Of a stretch of 64,000 bases of DNA, positions 12,556 through 60,281 are shown one piece after another. The stretch's first letter is position 1. Every line of letters starts with the position of its first letter. The notes beneath the pieces are model-generated. The model ran no database searches, had not been told where the DNA came from, and saw nothing but the letters and a program-made list of their open reading frames with translations. Position numbers and translations under genes: made by a program. This DNA is from Citrus sinensis. Taxonomy: Eukaryota; Streptophyta; Magnoliopsida; Sapindales; Rutaceae. Location of the stretch: the NCBI RefSeq assembly GCF_022201045.2, contig NC_068562.1, forward strand, positions 6,058,001-6,122,000, written 5' to 3'.

Positions 12556-13541
12556 CTTCTTCTTCTTCTTCTCTCTCAGTTCACTGGTGTCGTAAAACTG
12601 AGATGCAAACAAAGTTTAAAAAAGAAAAGAGGACGCGATCCGAACAATTATATTTATTTGTGATTTGTTTGTTTATTTTATTTTATTTTAGTGTTGTACT
12701 GCCATTATAATTGGAGAAAGCGAAAAAGAAGAAGCGTTTGTGGTTGTGGCAATGACGGTTTAGGTTGCGTTTTGAGATTCTGCCGTCCGCGCCAGCACCT
12801 TGCCACCTCTCACTTTGTGTCGAATTACAATTTATTTCCAACTTTAATCAGAATAGTACGCACACGGCATTACCCCTCAACCAATTGGTGCCACCGGCCC
12901 ATTATTGGCCTAGAAGCCCAATGACTGCGATTTGTGTTGAATCTGTCTACAGGCCCAGTGGCCACTGCTCTTTTCTCAAGAGTAAAACGCGCACATATGA
13001 TTTTCATTTTTAATTATTTAATATATATAGAACATTAGGACCAATCTGTGCTAAAAAATCTACTTCTATAATTATTAGAGATATTTTTATTTTATATAAA
13101 AGAAATTATTTTCATTAAAGTTTGAACTTACGATTTCAAGATTGAAGGCATGAATTTTTGCTATTGAGTCAATGGCTTAGAATTAATTGGATTAAGAATT
13201 TATTTATGATTATTTTTTAGAGATTCAAAAAAAATTTTTAAAAATTAAAAATTAATTTTAATGTTTTATAAATTTTTATATTTGTTATTAACTGTAATTT
13301 ATAAATAACTGATTATTTATAAAATACAGTTAATTAAAATTAATTTTGAAAATTCCTGTCAATTTTAAAAAGAGAGATATTCGGGCCCAGCTTTTTAAGC
13401 TGACACTCTTTTGGCGCTTTTTATTTTCTTAAATCGTTTACTCTCTCTGCAACTGCAATAGTTTTATTATTGATTGAAATTTTCAATATCTTTTGATAAT
13501 TCATTTGCTTAATATGAAATGCCGAACAAGTGTTTGCAGAA
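12556..13541. promoter_or_regulatory. Shared upstream region of the divergent CLPTM1 and PPR genes
   Basis: About 985 bp separate the CLPTM1 start codon (minus) from the PPR start (plus). The CLPTM1 side is GC-richer (about 12700-12990) and the PPR side is very AT-rich (about 13010-13380). No single promoter motif is strong enough to name. It must hold both promoters and both 5' UTRs. Confidence 0.5.
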
Positions 13542-13549
13542 ATGGCTGA
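13514..13549 (+). promoter_or_regulatory. Short upstream ORF overlapping the PPR start codon
   Basis: An ATG at 13514 opens an 11-codon frame that ends with TGA at 13547-13549, just past the main ATG at 13542 and in another frame. A second out-of-frame ATG at 13519 opens a frame ending at about 13578, also overlapping. If the leader is transcribed from upstream, both could reduce initiation at the main ATG. This is inference from sequence only. Confidence 0.4.
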
Positions 13550-16169
13550 ACCAAATGCCAAATCATGGATCACTATAATTAACGGCTTTTGCAGAGATGG
13601 TTTGCACAAGGAAGCCCTTTCCCTTTTCGCTCATGAGCTACAATCTTCGCCTTCTGTTAGACATAATCACCAGCTTTTTTCAGCTGTTCTCAAATCTTGC
13701 ACTTCTCTCGCTGACATTTTACTGGGCAAGGCTCTTCACGGCTATGTCACTAAGCTTGGCCATATTTCTTGCCAGGCTGTGTCCAAAGCGCTGCTTAACT
13801 TATATGCCAAATGCGGAGTCATTGATGATTGCTATAAGCTGTTCGGTCAAGTGGACAACACTGATCCTGTCACATGGAACATTTTATTATCTGGGTTTGC
13901 GTGTTCTCATGTTGACGATGCTCGTGTTATGAATTTGTTCTACAACATGCATGTCCGCGATCAGCCCAAGCCTAATTCTGTGACTGTTGCTATAGTTCTT
14001 TCCGTGTGTGCACGGTTAGGAGGTATATTTGCAGGGAAGAGTCTGCATGCATATGTGATCAAATTTGGATTGGAAAGACATACTTTGGTTGGAAATTCTC
14101 TTACATCTATGTATGCAAAACGTGGGTTGGTACATGAAGCATACTCTGTGTTTGATAGCATTGAGGACAAAGACGTTGTTTCTTGGAATGCAGTCATTTC
14201 TGGGTTTTCTGAAAATAAGTTACTTGGTGATGCGTTTAGATTGTTTAGTTGGATGCTGACAGGACCAATAAAACCAAATTATGCTACAATTCTCAATATT
14301 CTGCCCATTTGTGCTTCCTTGGATGCGGATGTGGGCTACTTCTTTGGAAGAGAGATTCATTGTTATGTGTTGCGTAGGGCTGAATTGATAGCAGATGTTT
14401 CGGTCTGCAATGCTTTGGTGAGTTTCTACTTGAGATTTGGAAGGACGGAAGAAGCTGAACTATTATTTCGTAGGATGAAATCGAGAGATTTGGTTTCTTG
14501 GAATGCCATTATTGCTGGATATGCATTGAATGATGAGTGGTTAAAAGCACTGAATCTTTTTTGCGAGTTAATCACCAAAGAGATGATATGGCCAGATTCT
14601 GTTACGCTCGTCAGCCTTCTTCCAGCCTGTGCTTGCTTAAAAAACTTGAAGGTTGGGAAAGAAATCCATGGCTATTTTCTCCGTCATCCTTACCTAGAGG
14701 AGGATGCTGCTGTGGGGAATGCCCTAGTTAGTTTCTATGCAAAATGCAGTGACATGGAAGCAGCTTATCGGACATTTTTGATGATTTGTAGGAGAGACTT
14801 GATATCATGGAATTCTATGCTTGATGCCTTTTCAGAAAGTGGATATAATTCTCAGTTTTTGAACCTTTTAAATTGTATGCTGATGGAAGGAATAAGACCT
14901 GACTCCATTACTATCTTAACCATTATTCACTTTTGTACTACTGTGTTGAGAGAAGGTATGGTTAAGGAAACTCATGGCTATTTGATTAAGACTGATTTAC
15001 TACTAGGTGATACTGAGCATAATATTGGAAATGCAATACTTGATGCATATGCAAAATGTAGGAACATTAAGTATGCATTCAATGTTTTCCAGAGTTTACT
15101 GGAGAAGAGAATTTTGGTGACATTCAATCCAGTGATCTCAGGTTATGCAAACCGTGGATCAGCTGATGAAGCATTTATGACATTTAGCAGAATATATGCA
15201 AGGGATCTCACTCCTTGGAATCTAATGATTCGAGTTTATGCTGAAAATGATTTTCCTAATCAGGCTCTCAGTCTATTCCTTAAGTTACAAGCTCAAGGAA
15301 TGAAGCCCGATGCAGTGACTATTATGAGTCTCCTTCCAGTATGTTCTCAAATGGCCTCAGTCCACTTGCTGAGGCAGTGTCATGGATATGTCATAAGAGC
15401 TTGTTTTGATGGTGTCCGCTTGAATGGAGCTCTGCTACATTTATATGCAAAATGTGGCAGCATATTCAGTGCTTCTAAGATTTTCCAGGGTCATCCTCAA
15501 AAAGATGTGGTTATGTTAACTGCTATGATCGGTGGATATGCCATGCATGGCATGGGAAAGGCAGCACTAAAGGTTTTTTCGGATATGCTTGAATTGGGTG
15601 TAAATCCAGACCATGTGGTCATTACTGCTGTGTTATCTGCTTGCAGTCATGCTGGCCTTGTTGATGAAGGACTTGAGATATTTCGTTCAATAGAGAAGGT
15701 TCAGGGGATCAAACCAACCCCAGAACAGTATGCTTCTCTGGTGGATCTTCTTGCTCGAGGAGGACAGATTAGTGATGCATATTCTTTAGTAAATAGGATG
15801 CCTGTTGAAGCAGATTGCAATGTATGGGGAACACTACTAGGTGCCTGCCGGATCCATCATGAGGTGGAATTGGGTCGTGTTGTGGCAAATCGCCTATTTG
15901 AAATGGAAGCAGACAACATTGGAAACTATGTGGTTATGTCAAACCTATATGCAGCAGATGCCAGATGGGATGGGGTTGTGGAGATCAGGAAACTGATGAA
16001 GACAAGAGATTTGAAAAAGCCAGCAGCATGCAGCTGGATTGAAGTGGAGAGGAAGAACAATGCCTTCATGGCCGGAGACTACTCCCATCCTCGACGAGAC
16101 ATGATTTACTGGGTATTGAGTATATTGGATGAGCAAATAAAAGATCAAGTCACTATTTCTGAGATTTGA
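13542..16169 (+). CDS. SLG1: E-class pentatricopeptide repeat protein, SLG1-like (At5g08490 type)
   Basis: PLS-class PPR proteins bind organelle RNA one base per repeat; the Arabidopsis protein this most resembles (SLOW GROWTH1) is needed for editing of mitochondrial nad3 RNA. This is one uninterrupted exon of 875 residues, as usual for the family. Tandem PPR units fill most of it, with typical signatures such as LLNLYAKCGVIDDCYKLF, KDVVSWNAVISGF, RDLVSWNAIIAGYA, IHGYFLRHPYL and GLVDEGLEIFRSI. The end has E/E+ type motifs (VWGTLLGACRIHHEVELG, YVVMSNLYAADARWDGV, KKPAACSWIEVE) and no DYW deaminase. I chose the first in-frame ATG. Upstream, the same frame still reads PPR-like (NAEQVFAEM) back to a TGA at 13515-13517, so the ancestral start may have been further 5'. 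No clear transit peptide is visible at this start. Confidence 0.93.
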   Translation: MAEPNAKSWITIINGFCRDGLHKEALSLFAHELQSSPSVRHNHQLFSAVLKSCTSLADILLGKALHGYVTKLGHISCQAVSKALLNLYAKCGVIDDCYKLFGQVDNTDPVTWNILLSGFACSHVDDARVMNLFYNMHVRDQPKPNSVTVAIVLSVCARLGGIFAGKSLHAYVIKFGLERHTLVGNSLTSMYAKRGLVHEAYSVFDSIEDKDVVSWNAVISGFSENKLLGDAFRLFSWMLTGPIKPNYATILNILPICASLDADVGYFFGREIHCYVLRRAELIADVSVCNALVSFYLRFGRTEEAELLFRRMKSRDLVSWNAIIAGYALNDEWLKALNLFCELITKEMIWPDSVTLVSLLPACACLKNLKVGKEIHGYFLRHPYLEEDAAVGNALVSFYAKCSDMEAAYRTFLMICRRDLISWNSMLDAFSESGYNSQFLNLLNCMLMEGIRPDSITILTIIHFCTTVLREGMVKETHGYLIKTDLLLGDTEHNIGNAILDAYAKCRNIKYAFNVFQSLLEKRILVTFNPVISGYANRGSADEAFMTFSRIYARDLTPWNLMIRVYAENDFPNQALSLFLKLQAQGMKPDAVTIMSLLPVCSQMASVHLLRQCHGYVIRACFDGVRLNGALLHLYAKCGSIFSASKIFQGHPQKDVVMLTAMIGGYAMHGMGKAALKVFSDMLELGVNPDHVVITAVLSACSHAGLVDEGLEIFRSIEKVQGIKPTPEQYASLVDLLARGGQISDAYSLVNRMPVEADCNVWGTLLGACRIHHEVELGRVVANRLFEMEADNIGNYVVMSNLYAADARWDGVVEIRKLMKTRDLKKPAACSWIEVERKNNAFMAGDYSHPRRDMIYWVLSILDEQIKDQVTISEI

Positions 16170-17740: not shown

Positions 17741-18259
17741 TCATGGTCTCTCACTTGTCCTGGGAGATGTTAGAGGGAACAAAGTGAGTAGTTCTGGTTC
17801 AGTATATCCTGGTCTAGACCGTGGTGATGGATGCAAATAAAATCGCCTCTCTTTGATGGCTTTCTCCTCTTCTTGGCTATTGAATGCAGATATTGCTGAT
17901 TCTACTTTGTTTTCGTCTTCCATTATGGACAGCTTTGCGAAGATTGTAGACGGAGTTCCAACAGGACTTGCGGGAAAACTGGGAGTTCCTGATTTAGATG
18001 GAGATGAACCAGGTTTGAAGATGATAGGCGGTTTGACTATCTCAAGCTTTGGCCTGGTATACTGTCTTCTTTCATGGAGTTTAGAAGTCTGCCTCTTTAT
18101 GCCTGCTACCTTTGCGGCTGCTCTATCTTGCGAAGCTGTGTTACTCTCTGAGGGGCCTGTTAAACGTTGCACTACCTCTCTAAAAGTGTTTGTGTCTGTC
18201 TGCACAAAAGTTGTTAATGGTTTGCAACCGGCTGCACCTTGGCTTGCCGGATTTTCCAT
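17741..18259 (-). CDS. VQ-motif protein, MAP-kinase-substrate type
   Basis: VQ proteins are small nuclear plant regulators that bind WRKY factors through the VQ motif; some (the MVQ group) are phosphorylated by MPK3/MPK6. This is a single exon of 172 residues. The core motif FREVVQRLTG is at residues 26-35, matching the FxxxVQxLTG consensus. After it comes a basic stretch (IKRQTSKLHERRQ), then Ser-Pro and Thr-Pro sites (SSPSKSGTP, PASPVGTPS, HPSPRSRPG) and a conserved C-terminal LFPLTSPRTS. These proline-directed sites fit the VQ4/VQ11/VQ31-like subgroup, but I cannot assign the exact member. A splice acceptor (GCAG) at about 18312-18315 on this strand and a donor at about 19521 suggest a long intron in the 5' UTR. 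Confidence 0.9.
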   Translation of the reverse strand: MENPASQGAAGCKPLTTFVQTDTNTFREVVQRLTGPSESNTASQDRAAAKVAGIKRQTSKLHERRQYTRPKLEIVKPPIIFKPGSSPSKSGTPSFPASPVGTPSTIFAKLSIMEDENKVESAISAFNSQEEEKAIKERRFYLHPSPRSRPGYTEPELLTLFPLTSPRTSERP

Positions 18260-18311
18260 GGATGTTTATCTCATTTGACAGGCTTGGTTTCCCAATCAGA
18301 TAGGCCCTAAC

Positions 18312-27604: not shown

Positions 27605-31636
<4,032 letters not shown>

Positions 31637-34052
31637 TTTTCTTGTTTTGGATTCTTGCTTTTGTGCTTGTCTGTGATCTCCTTCTTCTCAAGTGAATACG
31701 AAATAATGACCTTTGACTGTTGACTGACTCTGAAACACTACCAGCCTCTTCTTATTGCTAGATTCTCGCCTTCTCGCTCACTTCTTACATTAAAACGACT
31801 CTTTTCTTTTCAGTTATGGCTGAATAATGGGCTTGATTCAGATTATAGATAATAACATTTGGGTCCCTGAATTTTTATGTTTTCTCTATTACTATCATAG
31901 TTTTTAGATTTATATCATATAAGTTCTCAATGACAATTGCTTTCGAAATGAAAAATCTCACCGGTTAAACATCGATCCATTCCTTCGTACTTTGTGTTTG
32001 CAGTTGCTGAATGTAAATAATATTAAGAGGAGAAAGTCTGTATTTTGCTGAAGAAGTTTCTCATTTATATGTAAACTATTATAAATTAATTATATTAAAA
32101 CATTAAAAAAATATAAATTTTATTATGTTAAAGAAAATATTTTTTGTTATTAATGTCATCCTCACTTTATTAAAATAAGAATATGTCATAAAACAACTAT
32201 TATATACTGAGAGTTTGTTACAGTGCATGATTACGCACATGTGAATTAATCTCACATTGGAGGATTGTGAGCTCCACAACTTAGCTCTCTTCAATAGGAG
32301 TTTGACTTGGCGTACAATTGTGCATCAAGTCACAATTATATTATATAATGATTCTTATTTTATTAAAGTAATGGATAATTAAAAGATAAGAAAAATGTAT
32401 ATTTTAATATAGTGTATCATATCACATGGGTATGGTTATTGTGCAACTGTGGTACCGTGCGACAATTGCATCCAGCCGTTGGATGCACTTAAATGAGTGA
32501 GGTTCACTGACATCCAACGGCTGGATGCAACTGTCACACGGTACCACAGTTGCACCACAAGTTTTCCTTATATCACATATTATATTGAATTTTTTTTTCA
32601 TCTTTTAAAAGGATTCCTTATTTTATTTTAAAAGAAGAATTTCTTATTAAAATATTACTATATATACAATTGCGTTTCAATAAGAGATCTCATCCTTTAG
32701 TTTAAATTTAATTAAATGACTGCGAAAAAATAATAGTGTATCCTTCTCATATAAGTTTTTCGAACATAATTAACAGTTATTTTTGGTCAATTATGTGGAG
32801 TTAGGTCTTTGTGATATATATGAATAATTTATGTTATTATTTGAGAAAACGTGAAAAAGAAAAAAGTCGCTATTTTCGTTTAGAGATTAAAAAAGAGTGT
32901 ATGTATTTCTCTTCCCTCTGGAATCACTTTCAGATTTTCTATTTCAAATCAAAAATCACTTTTTTTTTCTTTTTTTTTTAAACATTTTTTGCGCCGCCCG
33001 CCCCTAACCCAGTTCTTTCACTCTCTCCAATCAGCGATTACAGCTTGCTTTGTCTGAGTCTGACATTTTTCTATGGTCTGTATTTTGTACTGCTTGGATT
33101 TTTGCAATTATTCAATGTTTTCTTGTTTTCTTTTTTTATTATATTGCCCATTTTGGGAAAAAGGTTTTGTTATTTTTTAAGTTACAAAAAGTGGTTGTCA
33201 AATTTCTCATACTGAAAAATTAATATATATTATTTATTTTTTATTATTTTATAATATTTTTAAAAATTAATTATTACGTATTTATTGACTGTCAATGTAA
33301 TTAAATTAAAAATTAATTCAACGATTCTTTAATCAAGATAAGAATTGGATCGATTATGTTGAAAATTAGTTTTTTAACTATCAATGTATTCATAATTGTT
33401 GTTGTATGATTATGAAACTTGCATTAGTATAAACTGAAAACCAATAAAAATTAATTATTAAGTGTTTAATAGAATCAAGAACAGAAACTGAACCTAAGCG
33501 AGATCTAGAGAGTTGAAAGAATATTTAAGGAAATGAAAATTGAGAAAAGTTAAGTGCATACAAAAGGCTAATTATATATCATGCGAGTAGTGCTATATAT
33601 CTAAAACTTTTATTTAAAAAATTATTATAAATAATGTAACATTTATGAATTAATTGGTAAGATAATTCAATTAGTTTCCAATCACGTGCGTGACTCAGCA
33701 GCACCAAGATGTAAGTATTAAATGCAATGCACAGTTATATATAATAAAATATTGGGTCAGTGACTCAGCGTCTGCGGTAGGCTTGTTTGTTGGTTGGTAG
33801 GGACCGGGAACTGGACGGAGTGACAAAATCTTGTGTTTGTATTATTTTGGTTTATTATCGTTTACCATTCACGAGAAATTCTGAGCACGTGATTATGCAT
33901 TTGTTTTTCTTTTATAGAAGTTTAACGACCTTTACATAAAATTAAAATTTCAATTGAAATGATATAATAAGTGGACACTGTTTATATTACACATATCGTC
34001 ACATTTTGTGGCCTGAAACTTCTGTTCAAGTACCACTGAACAGAACCACTGT
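31637..34052. other. AT-rich spacer upstream of the CDPK gene
   Basis: This spacer contains the CDPK promoter (left), the foldback at 32441-32555 and otherwise AT-rich sequence. A pyrimidine-rich stretch at about 32945-33060 resembles an untranslated leader (TCTTTCACTCTCTCC), but no coding frame follows. I see no gene. Confidence 0.5.
32441..32555. repeat. Foldback: 45-bp inverted repeat with 25-bp loop
   Basis: The left arm 32441-32485 and right arm 32511-32555 are inverted copies with about 2 mismatches in 45 (GTGCAACTGTGGTACCGTGC against GCACGGTACCACAGTTGCAC, with one base changed). The whole would form a nearly perfect hairpin. It may be a very short MITE or a small-RNA hairpin. I saw no clear target duplication. 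Confidence 0.85.
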
Positions 34053-42454: not shown

Positions 42455-45043
42455 TTTTATTTAACCGTTAATGCATTTTTGAAAGAGAAATGATATCGAC
42501 AATACAAACTGTGAACGATGCGGTTCTATCGCCGTTTTGTTAGGGATGATATCTGTTTCTGTAATAATTTCACGATGAAGATTTCTAATAAGTATTATTT
42601 TGTTCCTTTACACTCTGTAACTGCCAATTTTTTGTTCGATTTGAACATTTTGAAGTTTATAAGTAAGTATATACGTTAAGTTATTTCAAGTTCACCATAT
42701 TCGTCTCATGTCATAACCTACTAAATTCCGAAAATCATGCTTAACAAATAATAACCAGATTCATAATGCAAATTAAAACTCTTGTCCAGGTTTCATATAT
42801 TTCGTCTTGTCTTGTCTTGTCGTAGGTAATGAAGAGCTAGGTAGCCTTGGTTAAACCTCATCTTTGTAGCTAATATAATTTTATATTTTGGTGAGGCCTT
42901 AGCTGTCTCAAGCAGCTGAGACTTGTGTCGAATCCTTTAGCCATATGTTGATATTGGTTTTGGAAAGTCGGTATCTGTAGATTAAAGTTATTCGTGTTGA
43001 TCCTGCGTGCCCCAAAATAATTCTATCAGTTCTCGCACATCCTCGAAGAGAATATATGCGTGGAGATTTTTCCCCACTCTTTTGTTGAGTCTCTTTATCG
43101 GTCTACGTTGCTTAAAACGTACTGTATATAATGCTAACCGTGTTTATGCATTTATAATATGAAATAAACAATTTGCGTAGGTTCTTATTATTTATTTTGA
43201 GTGTTAGTTAACCTCTTGATATTAAAAAAAAAATGATAAAACCTTTTGGAGGTTGGAATGATAAAAGATTTATTGACTTTGAACTTCGTTCTCATTAGTT
43301 ATCAGTAATGCATGTTATGAATATGCTTTTAAAACAATAAAATAAAATAATAGTCACGTAACAGAAAGGAGTGTTAGAGATCATTGCCTAATAGAATTGG
43401 CTTGTGGCTCGTTTTAATCTAACAAGAAGGACCAAATTATTAATTAAAAGAAAAATAAAAAATTCTAAGTAACCATTATGGGAAATGTCGTGTTGCAAGA
43501 AGGTTTAGATTCAAATTTGCCCATTCACACAAATCCTGGGGAAATTTAATCTTCACTCTTGCTATGTTTAAAATGAAAGGGAAAAAGAAGAAGAAAGAAA
43601 ACGTAACAGCACGAATCCATTTCTAAGGGAAAGAATATTAATCCCAGAAAACACATGAAATAAACTTCAAACTCATAAATTAGCTGAGAAAATAATAATC
43701 AAACATACACCAAACTAAAAATTAAATGATTCGTAACATTGATACCTCACAAGCGTTTTGAAATGACATGACTTCGACAATCTCCTTTATTAAATTCTAA
43801 ATAATTAATTATTTCTAACAATAATGGTTAACACCGTGAGAGTATATCACAGACATGCATACAAAAATGTTGAATCATGTTGATATTTGTCAATAAATGA
43901 AGGAATAGAATGATATTAAACTTGGGATAGTTAGACTCAACGAATTTCTTATTGTCTTTGCTCAAATTACAACCAGCCTGTCAATTTCTAAAATTTACAA
44001 GTATGTGGCTGTCATTTGAGCAAGAAGACGAAAGAAAGAAATTCGATCCCCAAAAAAAAAAAAAAGAGAGAAAAAAATCATTACCCAAGGGCATGGCCAT
44101 CTAGTGAGGCACAGTGTTTAGAACAGTTGATTGTCTCAAAGCCACAGGGAAGCAATTGAGCATGTACAATTTTTTATAGCAATTAGCTATCCCATCAGTC
44201 TTTCTTTTACCTGCTCTGCCCCCTTGAACTGACTGATGCTGGATAAATATGTTGGGTCCCCCACTCTGCAATTGACAACTTGTAGCGTTTTGCTTACCTA
44301 AAGCTACCCGAGCTATCTGCCTAAGCCTTCAATTCTTTTTTCTAGCTCGTTCGTGATATTTTATTTTATTTTATCACCTTAATCAGTTTATGCTTACTTT
44401 CCTCTTTCTTGATTGCGGGGTAGAGTGGGACAATAGCTACGAAGGCAAGGCAAAATTGGAGAAATAGTTTTGAATGGATCGATGCGCCGGGGCCAAGGCA
44501 GAGCTATGTATGATTGCCCTTGTATTTATTCGTACAATTACAAAAAGCAGCAGCAAATTAAGGCACGACTTTTCCGAAGTCTACACGCAGAGGTACAGTA
44601 GTATCTCTCACATTCTCTCTCTGGGTATATTTAAGATATAATATAATATATGTACGTTGCGTAAATGGTGTAGCTGTTGATGATCCTAGCAACAAAATCC
44701 TAGTTCTTGAAACTGTACTCTGTTCAGATACAAATACAACAAGAAAGAGCATGGCAGTGAAATCCCTCGTGCCTCGGAAAAGAGCAACAAACAAATCCCC
44801 AAACCCCCTCACTCTCTCTCTCTGTTTCAATCCCCAACTGACCATATGAAGGACCAAAGGCTGATTGAAAACGAAAGTTTTTTTAAAGGATAATAATCCA
44901 CTTTGTTTATTATTTACATTAAAAAAAAAAAATTTGGAAGGGTTTATTTTGCTGATTTATTGAGAGTGTGTTGGTATATATGAACAGTAGAAGAGGTTAC
45001 AGTTCCATAAAGAGCTGAACCAGACACCATCCCTTTAAACTTT
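42455..45043. other. Intergenic region between SAUR and LAX2-like
   Basis: AT-rich spacer with the SAUR 3' UTR at the left and the LAX2-like promoter at the right. It includes a run of (TTGTC)n at about 42804-42822 and CT-rich patches near 44600-44640 and 44810-44825. No gene is supported. Confidence 0.5.
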
Positions 45044-47926
45044 TTGTCAAACGGATTCTTGAAGTGGAATATGCAAAAACATGCAGTCATGGCTTCTTCT
45101 TCTCAACAAGTGCACAAAAGTCACAACCCATTAGAAGAAGTAATTAGCGGGGAACTAGGAAAAGATGAAGGGGGAGGAGATTGGCTTGGGTTAGATTTAG
45201 GGTTAGGGTTAAGGTTTGACAGTACTACCGGGTGCAAGAAACCAGCTCATGAACAATCGCACCCGGTTTCAAGCACTGCATTAGCTTCTTCTTCCTCATC
45301 TTCACCATTCCTTATCCACCACCAACAGCGTCATGATCAGCAGCAAATACAGTCGGGTTTAGGGATAGGGATACGGCTAGGGTTAGGGTTAGGGTTAGGG
45401 TTAGAGCCAAGGGCAAGTGTAGGGTTTGATCAAAAGGGTGTCAGGAGCATGAATGGGGAGCCGCCTAGTAATAATCACAACAAGTTATTGCAAGTTCTGG
45501 ATCAGGATCATGAAATACCATTACGTTCACGGCAGATGAAGTTAACTAATCATCTTCTTCACTGGCAAATGCCAGGGCTTATTACTGATTCAAATGATTA
45601 CAGAAGGCCCCACCCTGGCTTTTGGTTTACCCTCATCTCTTCTACCAACCGGTGAGCAAATAGCAAATCACACACTCCTTGGTTCCTTTCTGTTGCAATG
45701 TTGAAAATTAGAACACTTTATTGACGTTAGATTCTCTTTTTATTAATATCTGGTTGATTTATTTGATTTTTTCTTACCCACTTACCAGTGTCATTTACTT
45801 TATTTTCATAATTATTTTGGCATCTGTGACTCATCATTATCTTTAGTTTTTTTTTTTTTTTCAACCTTGCTATATCATTGAAGTTCATTTTCGTCTCTTC
45901 TTGCTGGAATCTGTGTTACACGAGCAGATTTGGAGAAGCACTGCCTCAAGTACCAAAGGCGTATATTAGAGTGAAGTAAGTGGTGCACGTTAGAACGCAT
46001 ACATGATTTTATCATTTCATATCAATCTTGTCATTTGTTCACATAAATTTCCAAAAGGCTAATGATGGTGTTCAGTGAAAATGCATGGAAAAAGCTGATG
46101 TTTACTTTTGTAATATTTTTAATTATTGTTTTGGTGACAAAAGAGACGAGCACATGACGATTTCCACGGTTAAAAAGTACCTGGTTACAAAGCTTGGTCT
46201 CTCCAACGAAGCTGAGGTAATTAAATTACTCTCTCTCAGTAATACTAATGATTAATGAAGCTTTGCCTTCGCATGAGAGTTATGATACTTGTTTTAGTGA
46301 GATGACAGGTTTTTAGTTTGTGGGTCAGTTAACCTGATCATAAAATGATCTGTCTTAAATCTCGCCCTACTGATGAAGCAAATGCAGTCTACTGACAGGT
46401 CTAGGCCATTTAATTTGATGTAATTTGAAATTCTAAGGGTTTGAGAGAGCACCCACAGGCCACAACTAGTGTAAAACGAGTCCAATTGTTAGCTGAGAGT
46501 GCTGTTGCTAGTGAAAATAATTTTGGACCAATTTGAAGTGAAGGCTTTATATGTCATACTGATATATGCACACACATATATAATGGCTGCGAAAGAATGT
46601 ATAATCATATATTTTCATCCTCTAGGGTTTTTTAGATTTCTTCTTTGTGCTGCAAAGATTAAAAAATTCTAATTGAAGCTACAGAGATTAATACATCTGC
46701 ATATATAATGATTCTTTCTTGGAAAATGAAAGCTCTAAATTCAGTTTCTTTAATCGATCTTATGGATTTCCATCACTATTTTTTTCTTTTTTTCTTTTCA
46801 TATTTTGTTTCCAATGATTGAATTTTATGATTTGTACATCCTTAGTGGTCATTGAAACCCAACAAATATACCAGAAGTTGTTGAGTGTTTGGGAAGTTAT
46901 TAGTCCTTGAAACTTGCATCAAATATCTTAAAACAAAATTTCCGGTGCTAACCCTAGCTCGAAATTAGCTTATCATAAGATATTCTATGTAATCTACCTT
47001 ATATCATGATAAGATATGGTACAAATAGGAACTAATTTTGAAGACATTAATCGTTTGCTCTCATTAAAAGAATATGGTGAACACAGTTAACTCTCGAGTG
47101 AGAAAACAATGGAGTGATCAGTTAATCAGCACAATGTTAATGTTCTTTGCTTGCAAGCACCTGCTAGTTTTACTTCTGTATCTGCCCATTTTAATTAGAA
47201 GAATATGAAAGCTCTTCTGCATTTTTAAATCTTTTAATGACCTTCTAGATCTTCTAGATGTGGGGGATCTGAAAAGGTCCAAATAGGAACTTACGCCAAA
47301 GTCCGTGCCCTAGAAGTCAATTTGCAATCAGCCTAATAATCAACAGTGACAACATTACATATAAAGAATCTTTTGATCCCCTTTTCTTTTACAGCTCCAA
47401 ACATGATGGCCTCCAAGGACACTGTTATCGTCACACTCTCGCAGGAATACAGTAAATATATCGGTTTGAGAATGTGAATAATGACAACTTGTTTTCTAAT
47501 AATAAGCCAGAGAGGGTGTTAATACAATAGTTAATGTATATCGAAAATGTGAATGGCCGAGTCAACATAATGCTTTTGGCTGTAAGTATTATTTATTCAG
47601 ATAAATAGAGTGCAAGTTTTCTTCCTAATGCTGTGTCAAGTCACCATTGAAACTGTAATAGAAATATATTTAACTTGCAATCTTTATATGAAATTGACCT
47701 TTTTCTGTGATGGTTTCTTCTTCTATGATATTGGCGACAGGTTGATATATCATGCATGGGGTTGAACTTGCAGCATACACTGACCTTGAGGCAAGTGCGA
47801 GACGTTGTTTGGCTGCCCAGATTGATACAGTCAGTCAATTCAACAACTGTGTTGTTCCAGAACTCTGAGGACATGTCTATGCCATTACACTACGAAAGAC
47901 GCTGCCTCTTCGACTTGAATAATTAA
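45044..47926 (+). CDS. LAX2: LAX PANICLE 2-like nuclear protein, four exons
   Basis: Rice LAX2 is a nuclear cofactor in axillary meristem formation; the dicot function is less clear. Exons 45044-45651, 45928-45975, 46144-46216 and 47741-47926 join to 304 residues. The N-terminal half is low-complexity, with DWLGLDLGLGLRF and a second RLGLGLGLGLEP; these LxLxL runs match EAR-type repression motifs. The conserved C-terminus starts at RPHPGFWFTLISSTNR and continues PQVPKAYIRVKDEHMTIS, KKYLVTKLGLSNEAEVDISC and TLTLRQVRDVVWLPR, reminiscent of a ubiquitin-like RAWUL fold. The 48-nt exon 2 and 73-nt exon 3 keep the frame. Met10 or Met16 could also be the start. Intron 3 is about 1.5 kb. Confidence 0.82.
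45189..45404. repeat. Telomere-like repeats inside coding sequence
   Basis: Two clusters of TTAGGG-like units (45189-45213 and 45378-45404) match the plant telomere/telo-box unit loosely (TTTAGGG, GGGTTA). Read in the gene frame they encode the Leu-Gly runs of the LAX2-like protein. Confidence 0.85.
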
Positions 47927-51123: not shown

Positions 51124-51772
51124 ACCTTCCCCAGACGTGAGAGGCGATATTGGGACTTGCTTTGGCGGCTGAGAAACTCAGAAAATATATTTTAGATTTT
51201 CTAGGTTTTTAGCTTGTACAGTTGGAAAAAAAAATTCAAACATTTACGTAAATGTCATTTTGTGGGGCCCTTTTGAAATGTTTTTATAACCTACGTCTCT
51301 GTTCATATATGGCAAGTGGTAGCAGGATGGACTGACACGTCTCACTGCGAACTCTGCACGCGACACGAAACGGATAGCGACAGGAGGTGGTACTGGGTCC
51401 GGCTATTACCTGGTGAAAGCTTATGCATGAAATACACCCCGAGAGAGATCTAAGTACGCCACAATTATAAGCATCCGTTCCTCAAGTTAGCAGTGGCCTG
51501 TGCGGACAGGTCTTGGATCCAGCCCACCAGCTAAACGCCGGTAAAGGGCGGCAATACATTGACATCAACACATAGGTTGGACAACGTGTCGACAAAAGTT
51601 TTGTGATGAGACCCTCATTTAGCTTATTAATTCTTACGATTTTTGCCTTTACGATCGTCTTTTTTTTGTCCCTTTTCGCTTACACTGGTTTCATGTTTTA
51701 GCATACTCAAAGTTTATCATTTCTATATTATGCCCTCTAGAATTAAATTTTCTATGGATTCATTAAGGAAAA
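51124..51772. other. Spacer
   Basis: Between two inverted-repeat elements; I see no gene, RNA or repeat unit. Confidence 0.5.
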
Positions 51773-52697
51773 TGCTACTTACCCCGAGTTAAACTCCGGG
51801 TCAAACCCCAAAATTAATCCAAACGATGTTGTTTCATCCTTTTTTTATTTTTCAATCTCACTAAAATGACGTGTTTTGTCTTAGTTAAGGCAAAACAAAC
51901 GGCAGCCTCAAATTGCCTTCTTTTCCTCTTCGTCTCACAACCTTTAGCGTTGTATTCCTCTTCCTCTTCGTTTCACAGCCGCCACCACTGACAACCACCA
52001 CCGACAGCCTCTTCATTTCACAGCCACCACCACTGACAACCATCACGCCTGCCAACCACCATCACACATACCCAGTCATTCTCCTTCTATTCCTCTGTAA
52101 AATCAGTTACAGCCTCTGTGTTAGCAGCAGTTCCTGCACCGCACCAATATATGTTTGGAGCCATGTAATGAATTTTCTCACAATTCTTATCACAAACGAT
52201 GGGTCCTTCAGTTGCTCTGGTATGCTGCAAAAGCCTGCATATTTTTCTCCTTATAATTTGAGAAAGTGTGAAGTACCGTAAAACCATAGGCCACGCTACT
52301 TGGCAATCATCTTCAAGGAAAACGTCACAAATTCCCCCATTTATAATCCACTCTCCCAAACCAAAAAGAACACATTGACATGATAACAAATACATATATT
52401 CCACTTTCATATTTCGTCTTATTATAGTGGAAGTCTGAAATAATTCCCTTATACATTCTTCATCATCCTTGAACCAATCATTTACTGCAATATTTTTAAA
52501 CGAAGGGGAAGAAAACAGTGGTTTTACATAGAAAGGAGAATGGCTATGGTGAGCATAAGCGGAAGAGGAGAGTAAGCAATTTGGGGTTGACATTGCTGCC
52601 CAAAACGACGTTGTTTTGGGAAGAATGAAAAGAATAAAAAAAGGGATTGAAACGGTGTCGTTAGTTGGCTTCGGGGTTTGACCCAAGGTAAGTAGCA
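51773..52697 (-). mobile_element. Mutator-like non-autonomous element carrying host gene sequence (Pack-MULE candidate)
   Basis: The ends are long imperfect inverted repeats of about 85 bp. The left reads TGCTACTTACC, GGGTCAAACCCC, AACGATGTTGTTTCA, TCCTTTTTTTATT; the reverse complement of the right reads TGCTACTTACC, GGGTCAAACCCC, AACGACACCGTTTCA, TCCCTTTTTTTATT. Long terminal repeats fit Mutator-like elements. I could not find a clean 9-bp target duplication. Inside, the minus strand carries a proteasome beta-2 subunit fragment in an open frame of 203 codons (52087-52698) that begins in the right terminal repeat. The plus strand holds a 45-bp tandem repeat at about 51926-52056. Confidence 0.7.
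52097..52222 (-). pseudogene. Fragment of 20S proteasome beta-2 subunit (PBB/PSMB7) gene
   Basis: Translation on the minus strand gives [20 protein letters not shown] followed by [20 protein letters not shown]. This matches the conserved region just after the catalytic-site segment of plant proteasome beta type-7 (PBB1/PBB2). Only about 40 codons remain; the catalytic threonine and the rest of the fold are absent, so it cannot be an active subunit. The sequence TTTTGCAG just upstream of the match may be a captured intron acceptor. It is embedded in the inverted-repeat element at 51773-52697. Confidence 0.85.
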
Positions 52698-52730
52698 AAA
52701 CTCATTCACTAATAGTGTCATTATTTTTTG

Positions 52731-53324
52731 GATAAAAGCTCGTTTAGTGTCCCTATATTTTGAAGTTAGTGTTCATTTAGTTCTTATATTTTTAAAAATA
52801 TCTCAAATTATCCCTACCATTAAATTATTGACATTATTGCCATTATATTTTGTTCATTTTAACTTATTTTTACAATATTACCATATTAAAATAATTTTTT
52901 TAGATATTATTAAAAAGAAAAAAATAAATTACTAGTTTAACACTAAAAAATAAAATTAAAAAATATATATTAATTTTTGTGGAACACTCTCTTGAGTTAA
53001 ACTATTAATTTTTTCTAAAAAAAATTGATAATATAATTTTTTACAATATTAATTTTGTAGACAAACGTGAGCTTCCACAAAAATTAATATATACCTTTAT
53101 TTTATTTTATTTTAGAGTTTAATTTGATAATCTAATTTTTTATTAATATCCTAAAAAAAACATTATTGTAAGAGTATAATATTGTAAAATCAAGTTAAAA
53201 AGAATTAAAAATAATTGCATGAGTGTCAATATTTAACAATAGGGGTGTTTTGAGGCGTTTTTAAAAATATAGGGACTAAATAGGTACTAATCTCATAATA
53301 TAAGGACTAAACAAATTTTTAACC
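52731..53324. mobile_element. Inverted-repeat element with ~100-bp ends
   Basis: The left end reads CGTTTAGTGTCCCTATATTT, CATTTAGTTCTTATATTTTT, CTCAAATTATCCCTA and ATTGACA. The reverse complement of the right end reads the same series with changes (TGTTTAGTCCTTATATTATG, TATTTAGTCCCTATATTTTT, CTCAAAACACCCCTA). The core is about 390 bp, AT-rich and non-coding. It sits about 35 bp from the previous element. No certain target duplication. Confidence 0.75.
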
Positions 53325-56015: not shown

Positions 56016-59000
56016 ATGAAGTTGGGTAAGTGCATTTTTTTATGAAATGTTGAGGCATTCTTGTTTTTTTAAAGTTATTTATTAATCAGTTCATCTTGGA
56101 ATCTCTCTTAGATGGCATTGTTACTTTGTGTTTACTTATTATTTCTTACAATGATTGTTCTTCAATTCATTTGCTCAGAAGTTAGAACAGGAGCTTTAGT
56201 TTTTCTTTTGTCTAGATAACTCTATATAAGTAGCGTGCGTGATCTTTCTTTTTTTATTATATCTGTAAGCATTATGCTGGCATTTATTTGTATATAAGAG
56301 CTCAAGTTAATGGTAGTTGGAATTTTGGCAGGTAGTTTTAGCCTTTCAATGACTCACATGTACATTGCGTATGGTTATGCGATTAGATCCGGTGCTAACT
56401 ATCAAGACAACTCACAAAAATTGAATCTTTAAACGACAAAAATGAGCTGGGTCAAACTATTAAACTTTGCAGGTAGCATATACAGATTCATAAATGAACT
56501 TGATTGTTGCATAGGGAAATATATATGTCCCTTCTTTACTAATCTCCTTAATGGTGAATTATGTGCAAGAGAGATGCTAATAGGAGGAACCATACTTTTT
56601 CCTGTTATATGTACTGACCTTCATTTATGAAATTTCTAAAAGTTATCTGCAAGCTTGACCTTGGCATCAATTCCATTCTTGCTTTCAAACATGATGCAAA
56701 AGTTTAACAATCAACATGATATAGGTTCTCAACAACATGATTTGAATTCATCTCCAGGGAAAAATTTAAATGGAAGTCTCAGGAAATCAGGGTCTGGTGC
56801 GTCTTCTCTGACTTCTAATTGTATGCCTTAGATGTGATTTTTTTTTTCAATTTTTTGTTCATTCACAGTTATTTATCTTTTTTCTTCCATCTTATCGTGC
56901 AAGAATCTGTTCCTCTTTTTCTCATTGGTTCTCTTGTTGGTAAAGTGAATGCTAATTGTCTAGATGTGAGCTGTTTTCTGCTTAAGCGTACCTTTTTCTC
57001 ACCATTTTCTTAATGGAATTCATGCAGATTTTCTGCAAAATAATATTGATGCATCTCCAGCACGAAGTTTGGATGGAAGTTTCAGAAAATCTAACTCTGG
57101 TTTGTAATAATGGCTTCCTTTTGTTCTTGTTTTATCTAGTGGGGCAGGGGTCAATTTTTATTCCTTTACCTCACTTAAATTATGCACTAAATCTTAGTCT
57201 TTTTGCTTGATTGTTTTTATGCCTAATAAATTCATAATTTGTTTATGGCATGGCTGTTAGCCACTGTCCAGTACCTTCTTTAGCGAACTGAACATTGGGT
57301 TGGATTAGAGAAAATTATAAACATTATAATCCAGAGAATAAGTTTGGCTCTGCTTCAGGCATCTGACCTTGTGATAGTATTTACAGGTGAAAGTTCTTCA
57401 AAGGAGCAGCCTGAATTAGCCAAAGTATTTGAAAGGCATAAAAAGGAAAATAAAAATCAAGTTGAGAATGTTTTTGTGCCTTCAACAGAAAATACAACTA
57501 TTGAGAATTTCTGGGTTTTCAGTTTAACTGAAAAGAAAGAAAATAGCATAAGAGTAATTTTGTCCAAATTTGAAGTGCTACAGTGGGAAGGGTAAGGTTG
57601 AAAACTGCACAGATGGAATAGTAAAGAAAGATGGAATAGTTAAGAAATATATGTTGTGTAAATCTAGAAGAGTAAGTGAACCTTATGCCAAATCATTCTT
57701 ATTAGATGAGTTCTCAAATTAAGAGGAAGAAAAGGGGATGTTTTCTCATACTTAAGCAAAGGAAAAGCCAATGTGCAAGTGCACACCCTTATATGTGCTC
57801 ATGTGTGCATGCTAAGAGCTCAGCAATTGCTTTTCCTATCTAGAGACCCCCCCCCCAAAAAAAAAAGTTTTTTAAGAAGTAAGTTGGTAGTTAATTTCAT
57901 CCTGTAACTTTTTGTTGGCTTGCATTCATGATGTATTATGGCAGTACAGTCTGACAATCTGAACATGTCAATCATATTTTTGTAAGTACATTATTTCTTG
58001 ACCTATTTTATAAATCATAATCGCTGAAGTTTCCATATTTGCATTCATTCTTCTCCTATATAATGCATATATTTCTATTCAGTATATTTTTGTTACTACT
58101 AATGCTGCATTATGGTGACTACGGAATGCAGTTATATCTGCCCACAGTATATCTGGCATTTCAGCTTCAAGCCAGATTATTCCTACTTCCAGAAGAATGT
58201 ACAAGATGCTCAAGGATTTTAGAAGGAAACTTGTTGACCTAGAACTATTCACACAGAGTCTTGAGGATTGGGTTCTGGAAAAATCTCTTGCAGATCCAGC
58301 CTCTGGGAAGCAGTCTTTCAGGTCTCCGTTTCTGATGGATGAACTGTGCAGGCTTGATTTAGCATTGGAGGGGGTTTTATTTCAGCAACTATGTCGTATG
58401 CCGTGCTCATCTTATGCATCTTATGACCTGAAAGAAGATGAGTTTCTTGCAGTAGAAGACTTCCTACATGCTATAGTGAATGGCTTGTGGCGTACATTTT
58501 GGCGTAAAAGTGGACCATTGCCTTTCTTTCTATCCTGTCCCCGTCATCCTGGATCCAAGTTTTATTCTGTAGAGAAGGCAATATCAAGGGGAAGGATTGA
58601 TGAGCTCTGTGGTTTGTCTTTGATATCAACAACTGGGAATGATCTACATGTACACTGGGATCAGGTGATGGAATTTGCCTTATTTAGATCAGAAATATTA
58701 TCAGGAAATGATTTGAAGTTATCACCTAGCAGCATTTGTGAAGCCTTATTTTACGGTATTCATGTACTTATATCTAGGAGTTTGAGCAAGTATTGCACCA
58801 TTGGCAATGATTCTATCTTTGTTTTGGTTTTTGATTCAAAATTTGGTGGAGTCGTAAAACTTGGTGGTGACCTTGGAAAACTTGAATTCAATTCAGCTAA
58901 TCCATACCAATCTGTGGTAGAGTGGCTGAAATGTCATGCTGAAATAAATGTTTCCTCAGTAGACCAGATATGGAACAAGCTAGGGAATGCAAGTTGGGGA

Positions 59001-60281
59001 GACCTTGGAACTCTCCAGGTTATTCTGGCAACTTTCTATTCTATTGTCCAGTGGAATGGACCGCCAAGAAAATCAATAGCCTCATTGGCTTCAGATCACA
59101 GTCTCCGTCTTCAAAAGCGTAGGCTTGAGTACCGCTTAATTGACAATGGAAATGCACCGGTACCTTTCCAACAGGCTAGCCATGAGCAAGGCGAGATTGT
59201 TGAAGTTGAACAGAGTGATAATCCTTATTCCAGAAAGCAAGCATCCCGCTTAAAGCTCAAGCAGGGTGAAATATTGGTTTTGGAGGATCAAAGGCAGGGG
59301 CAAAAAAGTTTCCAAATACAGGAGTCTTTGGCACTAGGGAACCATTTCATCTACATTGCTGTTTCTGTAGATAATCCCACTGAGTTGTTGACTGTCTATG
59401 TGGGTGCTCATCCATCCAGACTAGAGCCATCTTGGGAAGATATGAGTCTATGGTACCAAGTACAGAGGCAAACAAAAGTGTTAAACACCTTGAGACAAGA
59501 GGGAGTTTCAAGCAAATATTTGCCAGAAATAATTGCATCTGGTCGAATTTTGCATTCTGGTTCTTGTAAAAAGCAGACCCCAGGTGGCTGTTGTGATCAT
59601 CCATTGTGTGGAACTCCAATATTAGTGACATCTCCAGTTGGAGAACCACTTTCTCTTGTTCTTGCTCATGATGGCCCTTTGTCTTCTGAGGAGGCAACAC
59701 GATGCTGCCGAGACTGTCTGCTTGCTCTACGAACTGCAGCATTGATGAATGTTCAACATGGTGATATTTGCCCTGAAAACATAATATGCATTGTCAACAT
59801 GCAAGGTGCAAGAAGCAAACTTTCATACATGCCAATATCATGGGGGCGTGCAGTTTTGGAAGACAGGGATAGCCCATCAATAAATTTGCAGTTCTCATCA
59901 TCTCATGCACTGCAGCATGGTAAGCTTTGTCCATCATCAGATGCCGAGAGCCTTGTCTACCTCTTATATTTTGTATGTGGAGGAACCATGGAGCAAGTGG
60001 ACTCCATTGAATCAGCTTTGCAATGGAGGGAGAGAAACTGGGCAAAGCGATCAATCCAGCAGCAACTGGGCGAGGTTTCAGCACTCTTAAAGGCGTTTGC
60101 CGATTATGTGGATAGCCTGTGTGGAACCCCATATCCAGTTGACTATGAAATTTGGTTGAAAAGACTACATAGAGCTGTCGATGGCTCAACAAATAGAGGT
60201 AAAATGATTGAAGAAGTAGCCATAACATTGAGACTAGAGGATGTCGCCGAATCCTCGGGAACCTCTGGAGGTGGTACCTAG
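56016..60281 (+). CDS. Large plant protein with degenerate (pseudo)kinase-like domain, five exons
   Basis: I do not know a named family. Exons 56016-56025, 56725-56796, 57028-57099, 57387-57591 and 58148-60281 join in phase to 830 residues. Exons 2 and 3 are both 72 nt, both phase 1, and encode similar 24-residue units (SPGKNLNGSLRKSGSG and SPARSLDGSFRKSNSG), so they look duplicated. The last exon holds most of the protein. Near residue 657, HGDICPENI resembles a kinase catalytic loop (HRDLKPEN), but the Arg and Lys are replaced. Where DFG is expected there is ISWGRAVLED, and SSDAESLVYLLYFVCGG resembles the helix F region of kinases. No glycine-rich loop is evident. I infer a pseudokinase fold. 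There is no signal peptide or membrane segment. The 10-nt first coding exon (MKL plus one base) is the least certain part. Confidence 0.83.
57847..57866. repeat. Homopolymer pair C(10)A(10)
   Basis: A run of 10 C directly followed by about 10 A, in intron 4 of the kinase-like gene. Confidence 0.85.

Follow-up and report, generated by a model that had tools for sequence, protein, structure and literature searches.

The 64,000-nucleotide window analysed here (Citrus sinensis contig NC_068562.1, positions 6,058,001 to 6,122,000) contains an inverted-repeat element in which part of a proteasome beta-2 gene lies within a long open frame. The question raised by this locus is whether a transposon has captured a gene fragment and turned it into an expressed chimeric protein, as the initial annotation had considered, or whether the frame came about in another way. 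In the reading preferred here, to which we assign a probability of roughly 0.88, a non-autonomous Mutator-like element mobilised in trans by a MULE transposase would have picked up genomic DNA from a proteasome beta-2 (PBB) gene, probably through a template switch in the course of repairing an internal gap. It would then have inserted at its present site, generating a 9-bp target duplication, and the frame would be a by-product rather than a selected protein. The ends, the family, the target duplication, the source gene, the captured intron, the junctions and the transposase domains near related ends were all observed directly.

Ends of the element and target duplication

A comparison of the ends of related copies places the element at 51767-52703 (937 bp), with each end 6 bp outside the earlier-noted positions 51773 and 52697. 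The left terminal inverted repeat (TIR) occupies 51767-51880 on the plus strand and starts with GGAAAATGCTACTTACCCC, and the right one occupies 52590-52703 on the minus strand, where it starts with GAGTTTTGCTACTTACC. Over the outer 26 nt the arms are 81 % complementary, and a further block of 15 nt reaches 93 %. The best local gapped alignment matches 64 of 79 positions (81 %; left 32-112 against right 20-103 of the element), and an alignment from the true ends matches 78 of 104 (75 %). The TIRs are about 110 bp long and imperfect. The inverted repeats of about 85 bp given in the initial annotation are therefore present, and the length of the local alignment is close to this value, but the true ends lie further out and the repeats are longer.

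In the fully aligned copies of the family, the ends read GGAAAATGCTA... and GAGTTYTGCTA..., with a 9-bp duplication directly outside them. The target duplication named earlier as a check was also found at this element, where ATTCATTAA (51758-51766) and ATTCACTAA (52704-52712) agree at eight of nine bases, i.e. with one mismatch. A second inverted-repeat element, which is MITE-like, starts 17 bp to the right of this duplication and spans 52730-53324, with arms at 52730-52900 and 53157-53324 within the slice aligned.

A family of elements sharing the ends

The genome searched comprises 299.7 Mb in 11 contigs, of which C1-C9 account for 299.0 Mb. The left-end query (51773-51880) and the right-end query (52580-52703) each gave at least 40 matches, this element included in both cases. 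Pairing of facing ends 0.6-1.5 kb apart among 51 merged stretches resulted in 27 copies including this one, so that the expectation of other copies with the same ends was borne out. In all eight copies whose two ends align from TIR position 1, this element among them, a 9-bp repeat occurs at a constant offset and with no more than one mismatch; six of these repeats are perfect, and the single mismatches occur in this element and in C2:22785645. If the offset is chosen freely, a 9-bp repeat is found in 25 of the 27 copies, a figure that includes low-complexity matches.

The cargo of the family was scanned in eight of the 26 other copies, namely the seven with the largest interiors unmatched by the family and one of two sisters with long inward frames. 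Nine frames from these copies and the frame of the present element were searched against Pfam. A sister of the RING-finger copy (96 % identical), at C7:7542899, is one of the 18 remaining copies. Gene fragments above the Pfam cut-offs were found in five of the eight scanned copies, which had been chosen for unusual interiors, with one fragment per copy: a protein kinase, a trehalose phosphatase, a glycosyltransferase (DXD), a RING finger and a purine permease. The kinase match covers residues 67-157 of a 208-codon frame in one other copy of the 27. A PPR match in one further scanned copy scored 24.3, slightly below its cut-off of 25, and the Pfam scan gave no match for two of the eight. Outside the paired copies, a 226-codon frame on the inner side of a lone detected end at C5:30030773 encodes part of an EMP70 membrane protein (E 4.7e-64).

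The family has captured genes repeatedly, and the copy carrying the proteasome piece is one ordinary member of it. The proposed identity as a Pack-MULE holds, given that the ends recur in other copies, that 9-bp duplications flank them and that proteasome beta-2 sequence has been captured; the element is a clear but ordinary representative of a known kind. Among the matches listed from titles and abstract beginnings in the open-licence literature, no account of this element or of a Pack-MULE family with these ends was found.

The family can also be linked to a transposase. A genome search with the transposase profile PF10551 gave 899 candidates, the best 150 of which were scored. When 41 ends resembling those of copy C7:8701051 were examined, six had such a domain 3.4-5.0 kb away on the inner side, whereas random placement of the ends gave a mean of 0.18 inner-side domains and a maximum of three in 1000 trials. 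The transposase-bearing candidates are C7:8696574, C8:20755142, C8:13947161, C3:18472550, C7:13073823 and C3:11801045. On the outer side, the domain was found at two of the 41 ends (C9:31900581 and C3:15503504). The top-scoring PF10551 domain of the genome, at C7:8696574, lies in a stop-free frame of 741 codons, 4.2 kb from the end C7:8701051, which is also among the at least 40 matches to the left end of the present element. For the matches to this element's own ends, an inner-side domain was found in two of 40 and one of 40, with one place common to both searches. The only places concerned are C7:8701051 and C3:15504578/15504546, and at the latter another end sits between the domain and the counted end. 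The link is thus to the wider TIR family and was drawn from one end, not both, of each transposase-bearing candidate.

Source of the captured DNA

The presence of a proteasome beta-2 fragment in the frame, as claimed in the initial annotation, is supported by a match to Pfam PF00227 (E 1.2e-05; score 25.5 bits, cut-off 22.4) and by the best matching PDB chain (E 4.2e-19). Weak PDB matches to a nuclease inhibitor over residues 49-117 (E 0.26-0.29) were taken as noise.

At the DNA level, the interior of the element matches contig C2 in two blocks. The piece at 52104-52222 (minus strand) is 95 % identical to C2:6389689-6389812 and represents the second coding exon of a proteasome beta-2 gene except for approximately its first 22 nt. 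The adjacent piece at 52223-52497 (minus strand) comes from the 3' portion of that gene's first coding intron and is 87 % identical, gaps included, to C2:6389913-6390203. Weaker matches were found at C3:25899809-25900332 (93 % and 81 %) and, for the exon only (83 %), at C4:26000214, which is a second PBB gene. By sequence comparison, the source is one gene, the PBB gene on C2, captured as genomic DNA. This gene looks intact in the 3.5 kb read (C2:6388187-6391703), where its exons are readable in frame; a later exon stretch reads DMVSSQLQLHRYHTGRESRVV... The related proteasome beta-2 copy on C3, which was read over C3:25898309-25901834, is collinear downstream but carries a stop in exon 2, and nothing in the part read matches the first exon; it has the appearance of a pseudogene.

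The order of events can be read from sites that are private to one of the three sequences. Of these, 36 are private to C3, ten to the element and eight to C2, while 337 sites are shared and two differ in all three. The element thus groups with C2 and not with the degraded C3 copy, which indicates a capture after the split between C2 and C3.

Since intron sequence is present in the element, the capture was from DNA and not by way of a retrocopy. A test for a captured intron edge against the PBB loci was accordingly positive, with part of the first coding intron captured. A retrocopy or partly spliced transcript was considered as the source, given that the captured DNA stops where exon 2 does at its 3' end, and was rejected, as the sequence beyond this point does not correspond to exon 3 and intron 1 is partly kept. 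The earlier suggestion that the rest of the frame might hold a second capture did not hold: PF00227 is the only Pfam match, and this remainder aligns to the intron of the same proteasome gene and to MULE backbone, so no second gene was captured. A second copy of the proteasome capture was not found in the genome search among the matches scored, and amplification of this element after the capture was not seen. For comparison, the available text of PMC8277862 describes about one third of Pack-MULEs as multicopy.

Junctions, capture route and age

The captured DNA is enclosed by family backbone, and the borders follow from where similarity to other copies stops. The left backbone common to other copies (51881-52079, plus strand) ends at 52079 in six, at 52078 in one and at 52083 in one of the eight best rows. 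The right backbone (52498-52589, minus strand) begins at 52498 in five and at 52492 in one of the nine best rows, and further in in the other three.

At the right junction, the backbone adjoins the intron piece with about two A residues in common. At the left junction, the backbone is followed by a filler of about 24 bp (52080-52103), which at the thresholds used matches neither the copies, save for the one row reaching 52083, nor the proteasome gene, and then by the last base of exon 2. The captured exon ends at the 3' boundary of the exon, where the gene reads AACTG followed across the boundary by GTACTT; this coincidence of the capture edge with the splice site of exon 2 is treated as an unexplained chance. 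Between the two captured pieces, at 52222/52223, about 100 bp are missing, comprising the end of the intron, the splice acceptor and approximately the first 22 bases of the second coding exon. Gap-filling models, as outlined in the available text of PMC8277862, allow for filler and short microhomology at junctions. The junctions seen here fit a capture by gap filling, which would be the likely route.

If the non-coding rate of 5.62e-9 quoted in the accessible part of PMC6466647 applies, the 18 differences at 393 sites would correspond to a rough age of about 4 million years.

Origin of the long open frame

The minus-strand frame at 52087-52701 is real and comprises 204 codons from stop to stop, one more than the 203 initially reported. 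Its first ATG is codon 37 (52593), which leaves 168 codons. It is the longest frame in the element, and its only match is to the proteasome, without a transposase gene. Divided along the borders of the parts, it consists of about 68 codons of TIR and backbone, 92 of intron, 40 of exon and five to six of filler. A frame of 204 codons was reached in four of 2000 dinucleotide-preserving shuffles of the element. This test overstates the surprise because about 40 codons descend from a real exon.

The composition of the family ends also has to be taken into account. Their inward strand is pyrimidine-rich: in 54 ends, pyrimidines make up on average 0.588 of the initial 150 nt, with a value above 0.5 in 52 of the 54 and 0.64 in the present element. 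Inward stop-free frames of at least 100 codons start from eight of the 54 ends of the 27 paired copies, this element included, compared with 0.7 % of mononucleotide shuffles and 1.7 % of 2160 dinucleotide-shuffled ends used as controls; outward-reading frames of this length occur at none of the 54. Two sister pairs (96 % and 98 % identical) are among the eight ends, so that at most six are independent.

Within the captured stretch, the frame was compared with the gene copies. An 11-bp deletion in the element joined two intron stretches that are open in C2. The C2 intron has its own 10-bp deletion, which the element does not have, and none of 853 sense-strand windows in the present C2 intron is open for 60 codons. 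The aligned frame of C2 contains two stops: a TAG at the edge of homology, which is the capture border, and a TGA at codon 30, where C3 encodes R, so that this stop is C2's alone. Of the seven stops in C3, six fall on codons that agree as sense codons in the element and C2, and none of these six was therefore lost by the element. The seventh, at codon 49 of the captured piece, falls where C2 lacks the bases and the element is open; the element may have lost a stop at this position. The frame is therefore less surprising than its length suggests, given a stop-poor, pyrimidine-rich TIR strand, an exon that is open by descent and an indel in the intron piece. Selection would probably not be needed to open it, although the lack of a 60-codon open window in the C2 intron, qualified by the deletion specific to C2, and the possible stop loss at codon 49 weigh the other way. 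The 204-codon frame looks fortuitous.

A more general reading of the same composition is that the inward strand of the family ends serves as a stop-poor launch pad that repeatedly makes TIR-initiated chimeric frames, of which the proteasome/intron frame would be one that may be translated. As stated in full, this is considered quite improbable.

The reading raised by the initial annotation goes further, namely that the element is a Pack-MULE expressing a selected chimeric protein of 168 residues from the ATG at 52593 with a promoter in the right TIR. The rarity of the frame in the shuffles, the possible loss of a stop at codon 49 and the two sister copies with RING fragments, whose frames of 160 and 158 codons read inward from the TIR, are in its favour, and TIR promoters are described as driving the expression of Pack-MULE interiors elsewhere in the portion of PMC3310237 available. 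However, almost half of the frame is former intron, and the stops of the gene copies, a capture border and a C2-private TGA on the one hand and six C3 stops that the element did not have to lose on the other, argue against selective opening. The element-private substitutions in the frame comprise nine replacement changes and one silent change, including C to W and D to N in the exon piece, and show no sign of purifying selection, although the numbers are small, two of the ten sit at the edge of homology and the element is a single copy. Moreover, protein-coding Pack-MULEs are called rare in the available text of PMC8277862.

The content of the fragment points the same way. Counted from the C2 translation, it begins at Thr18 of the mature subunit. 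The fragment has neither Thr1, which exon 1 encodes, nor Asp17, whose codon went missing at the junction. Both are residues that we take to belong to the active site of the proteasome beta-2 subunit, so that catalysis by the fragment appears most unlikely. A new protein function for the frame is likewise unsupported, and the sequence evidence gives no support to the expression of a chimeric protein. A selected protein is thus judged very unlikely.

Alternatively, the element might not encode a protein but produce small or antisense RNAs directed at the PBB gene from which its cargo came. An exon stretch of about 120 nt that is 95 % identical to its parent lies between transposon ends, and roles of this kind are mentioned for Pack-MULEs in the available text of PMC8277862. 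Against this, the cargo is short and no second copy was found among the matches scored, and such a role seems very improbable.

It is extremely unlikely that the segment is left over from a tandem, segmental or retro-duplication of the proteasome gene and is bordered by inverted repeats only by chance. In favour of this reading, the captured pieces keep the order seen in the gene, and a degraded collinear copy does exist on C3. Against it, the proteasome homology stops inside the element at 52104 and about 52497, which excludes a tandem-duplicate remnant, the flanking MULE backbone recurs in copies with other cargo, the intron sequence contradicts a processed retrocopy, and a 9-bp target duplication is present.

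Comparison with known elements

The preferred reading, a Pack-MULE with a fortuitous frame, places the element beside the Pack-MULEs of rice, tomato and Arabidopsis, with which it has in common long TIRs, 9-bp duplications, a size of about 1 kb and fragments of cellular genes. It differs from them in its cargo, a proteasome beta-2 gene, and in the rather diverged TIR arms (75-81 %). Animal Pack-TIRs formed by gap filling or FoSTeST, as presented in the available text of PMC8277862, resemble it in that no second copy of the capture was found here among the matches scored, and their models allow for a junction of low microhomology together with one of short filler, as seen here. These are animal elements, whereas the present one is from a plant. 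In citrus itself, the accessible part of PMC4334395 describes CitMule as a MULE family of about 6.9 kb with a transposase gene, short degenerate ends and 9-bp duplications. The 9-bp target duplications and the MULE transposase are shared with the family studied here, while, as described, the length, the resident transposase gene and the short degenerate ends set CitMule apart.

The locus adds a well-resolved Pack-MULE, with exact ends, a target duplication, a parent gene, a captured intron and junctions. It suggests that a TIR composition poor in stops, descent from an exon and a small number of indels can together yield a striking frame of 204 codons in such an element. This calls for caution in annotating such Pack-MULE frames as genes.

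Neighbouring genes

Elsewhere in the window, Pfam gave no match for the frames at 58119-60281 and 45011-45655. Among the neighbouring host genes, Pfam matches identified a pentatricopeptide-repeat protein with an E motif at 13518-16169, a VQ-motif protein at 17741-18265, a protein kinase at 31052-31687 and an XS zinc-finger protein at 1888-2970, the last of which is presumably SGS3-like.
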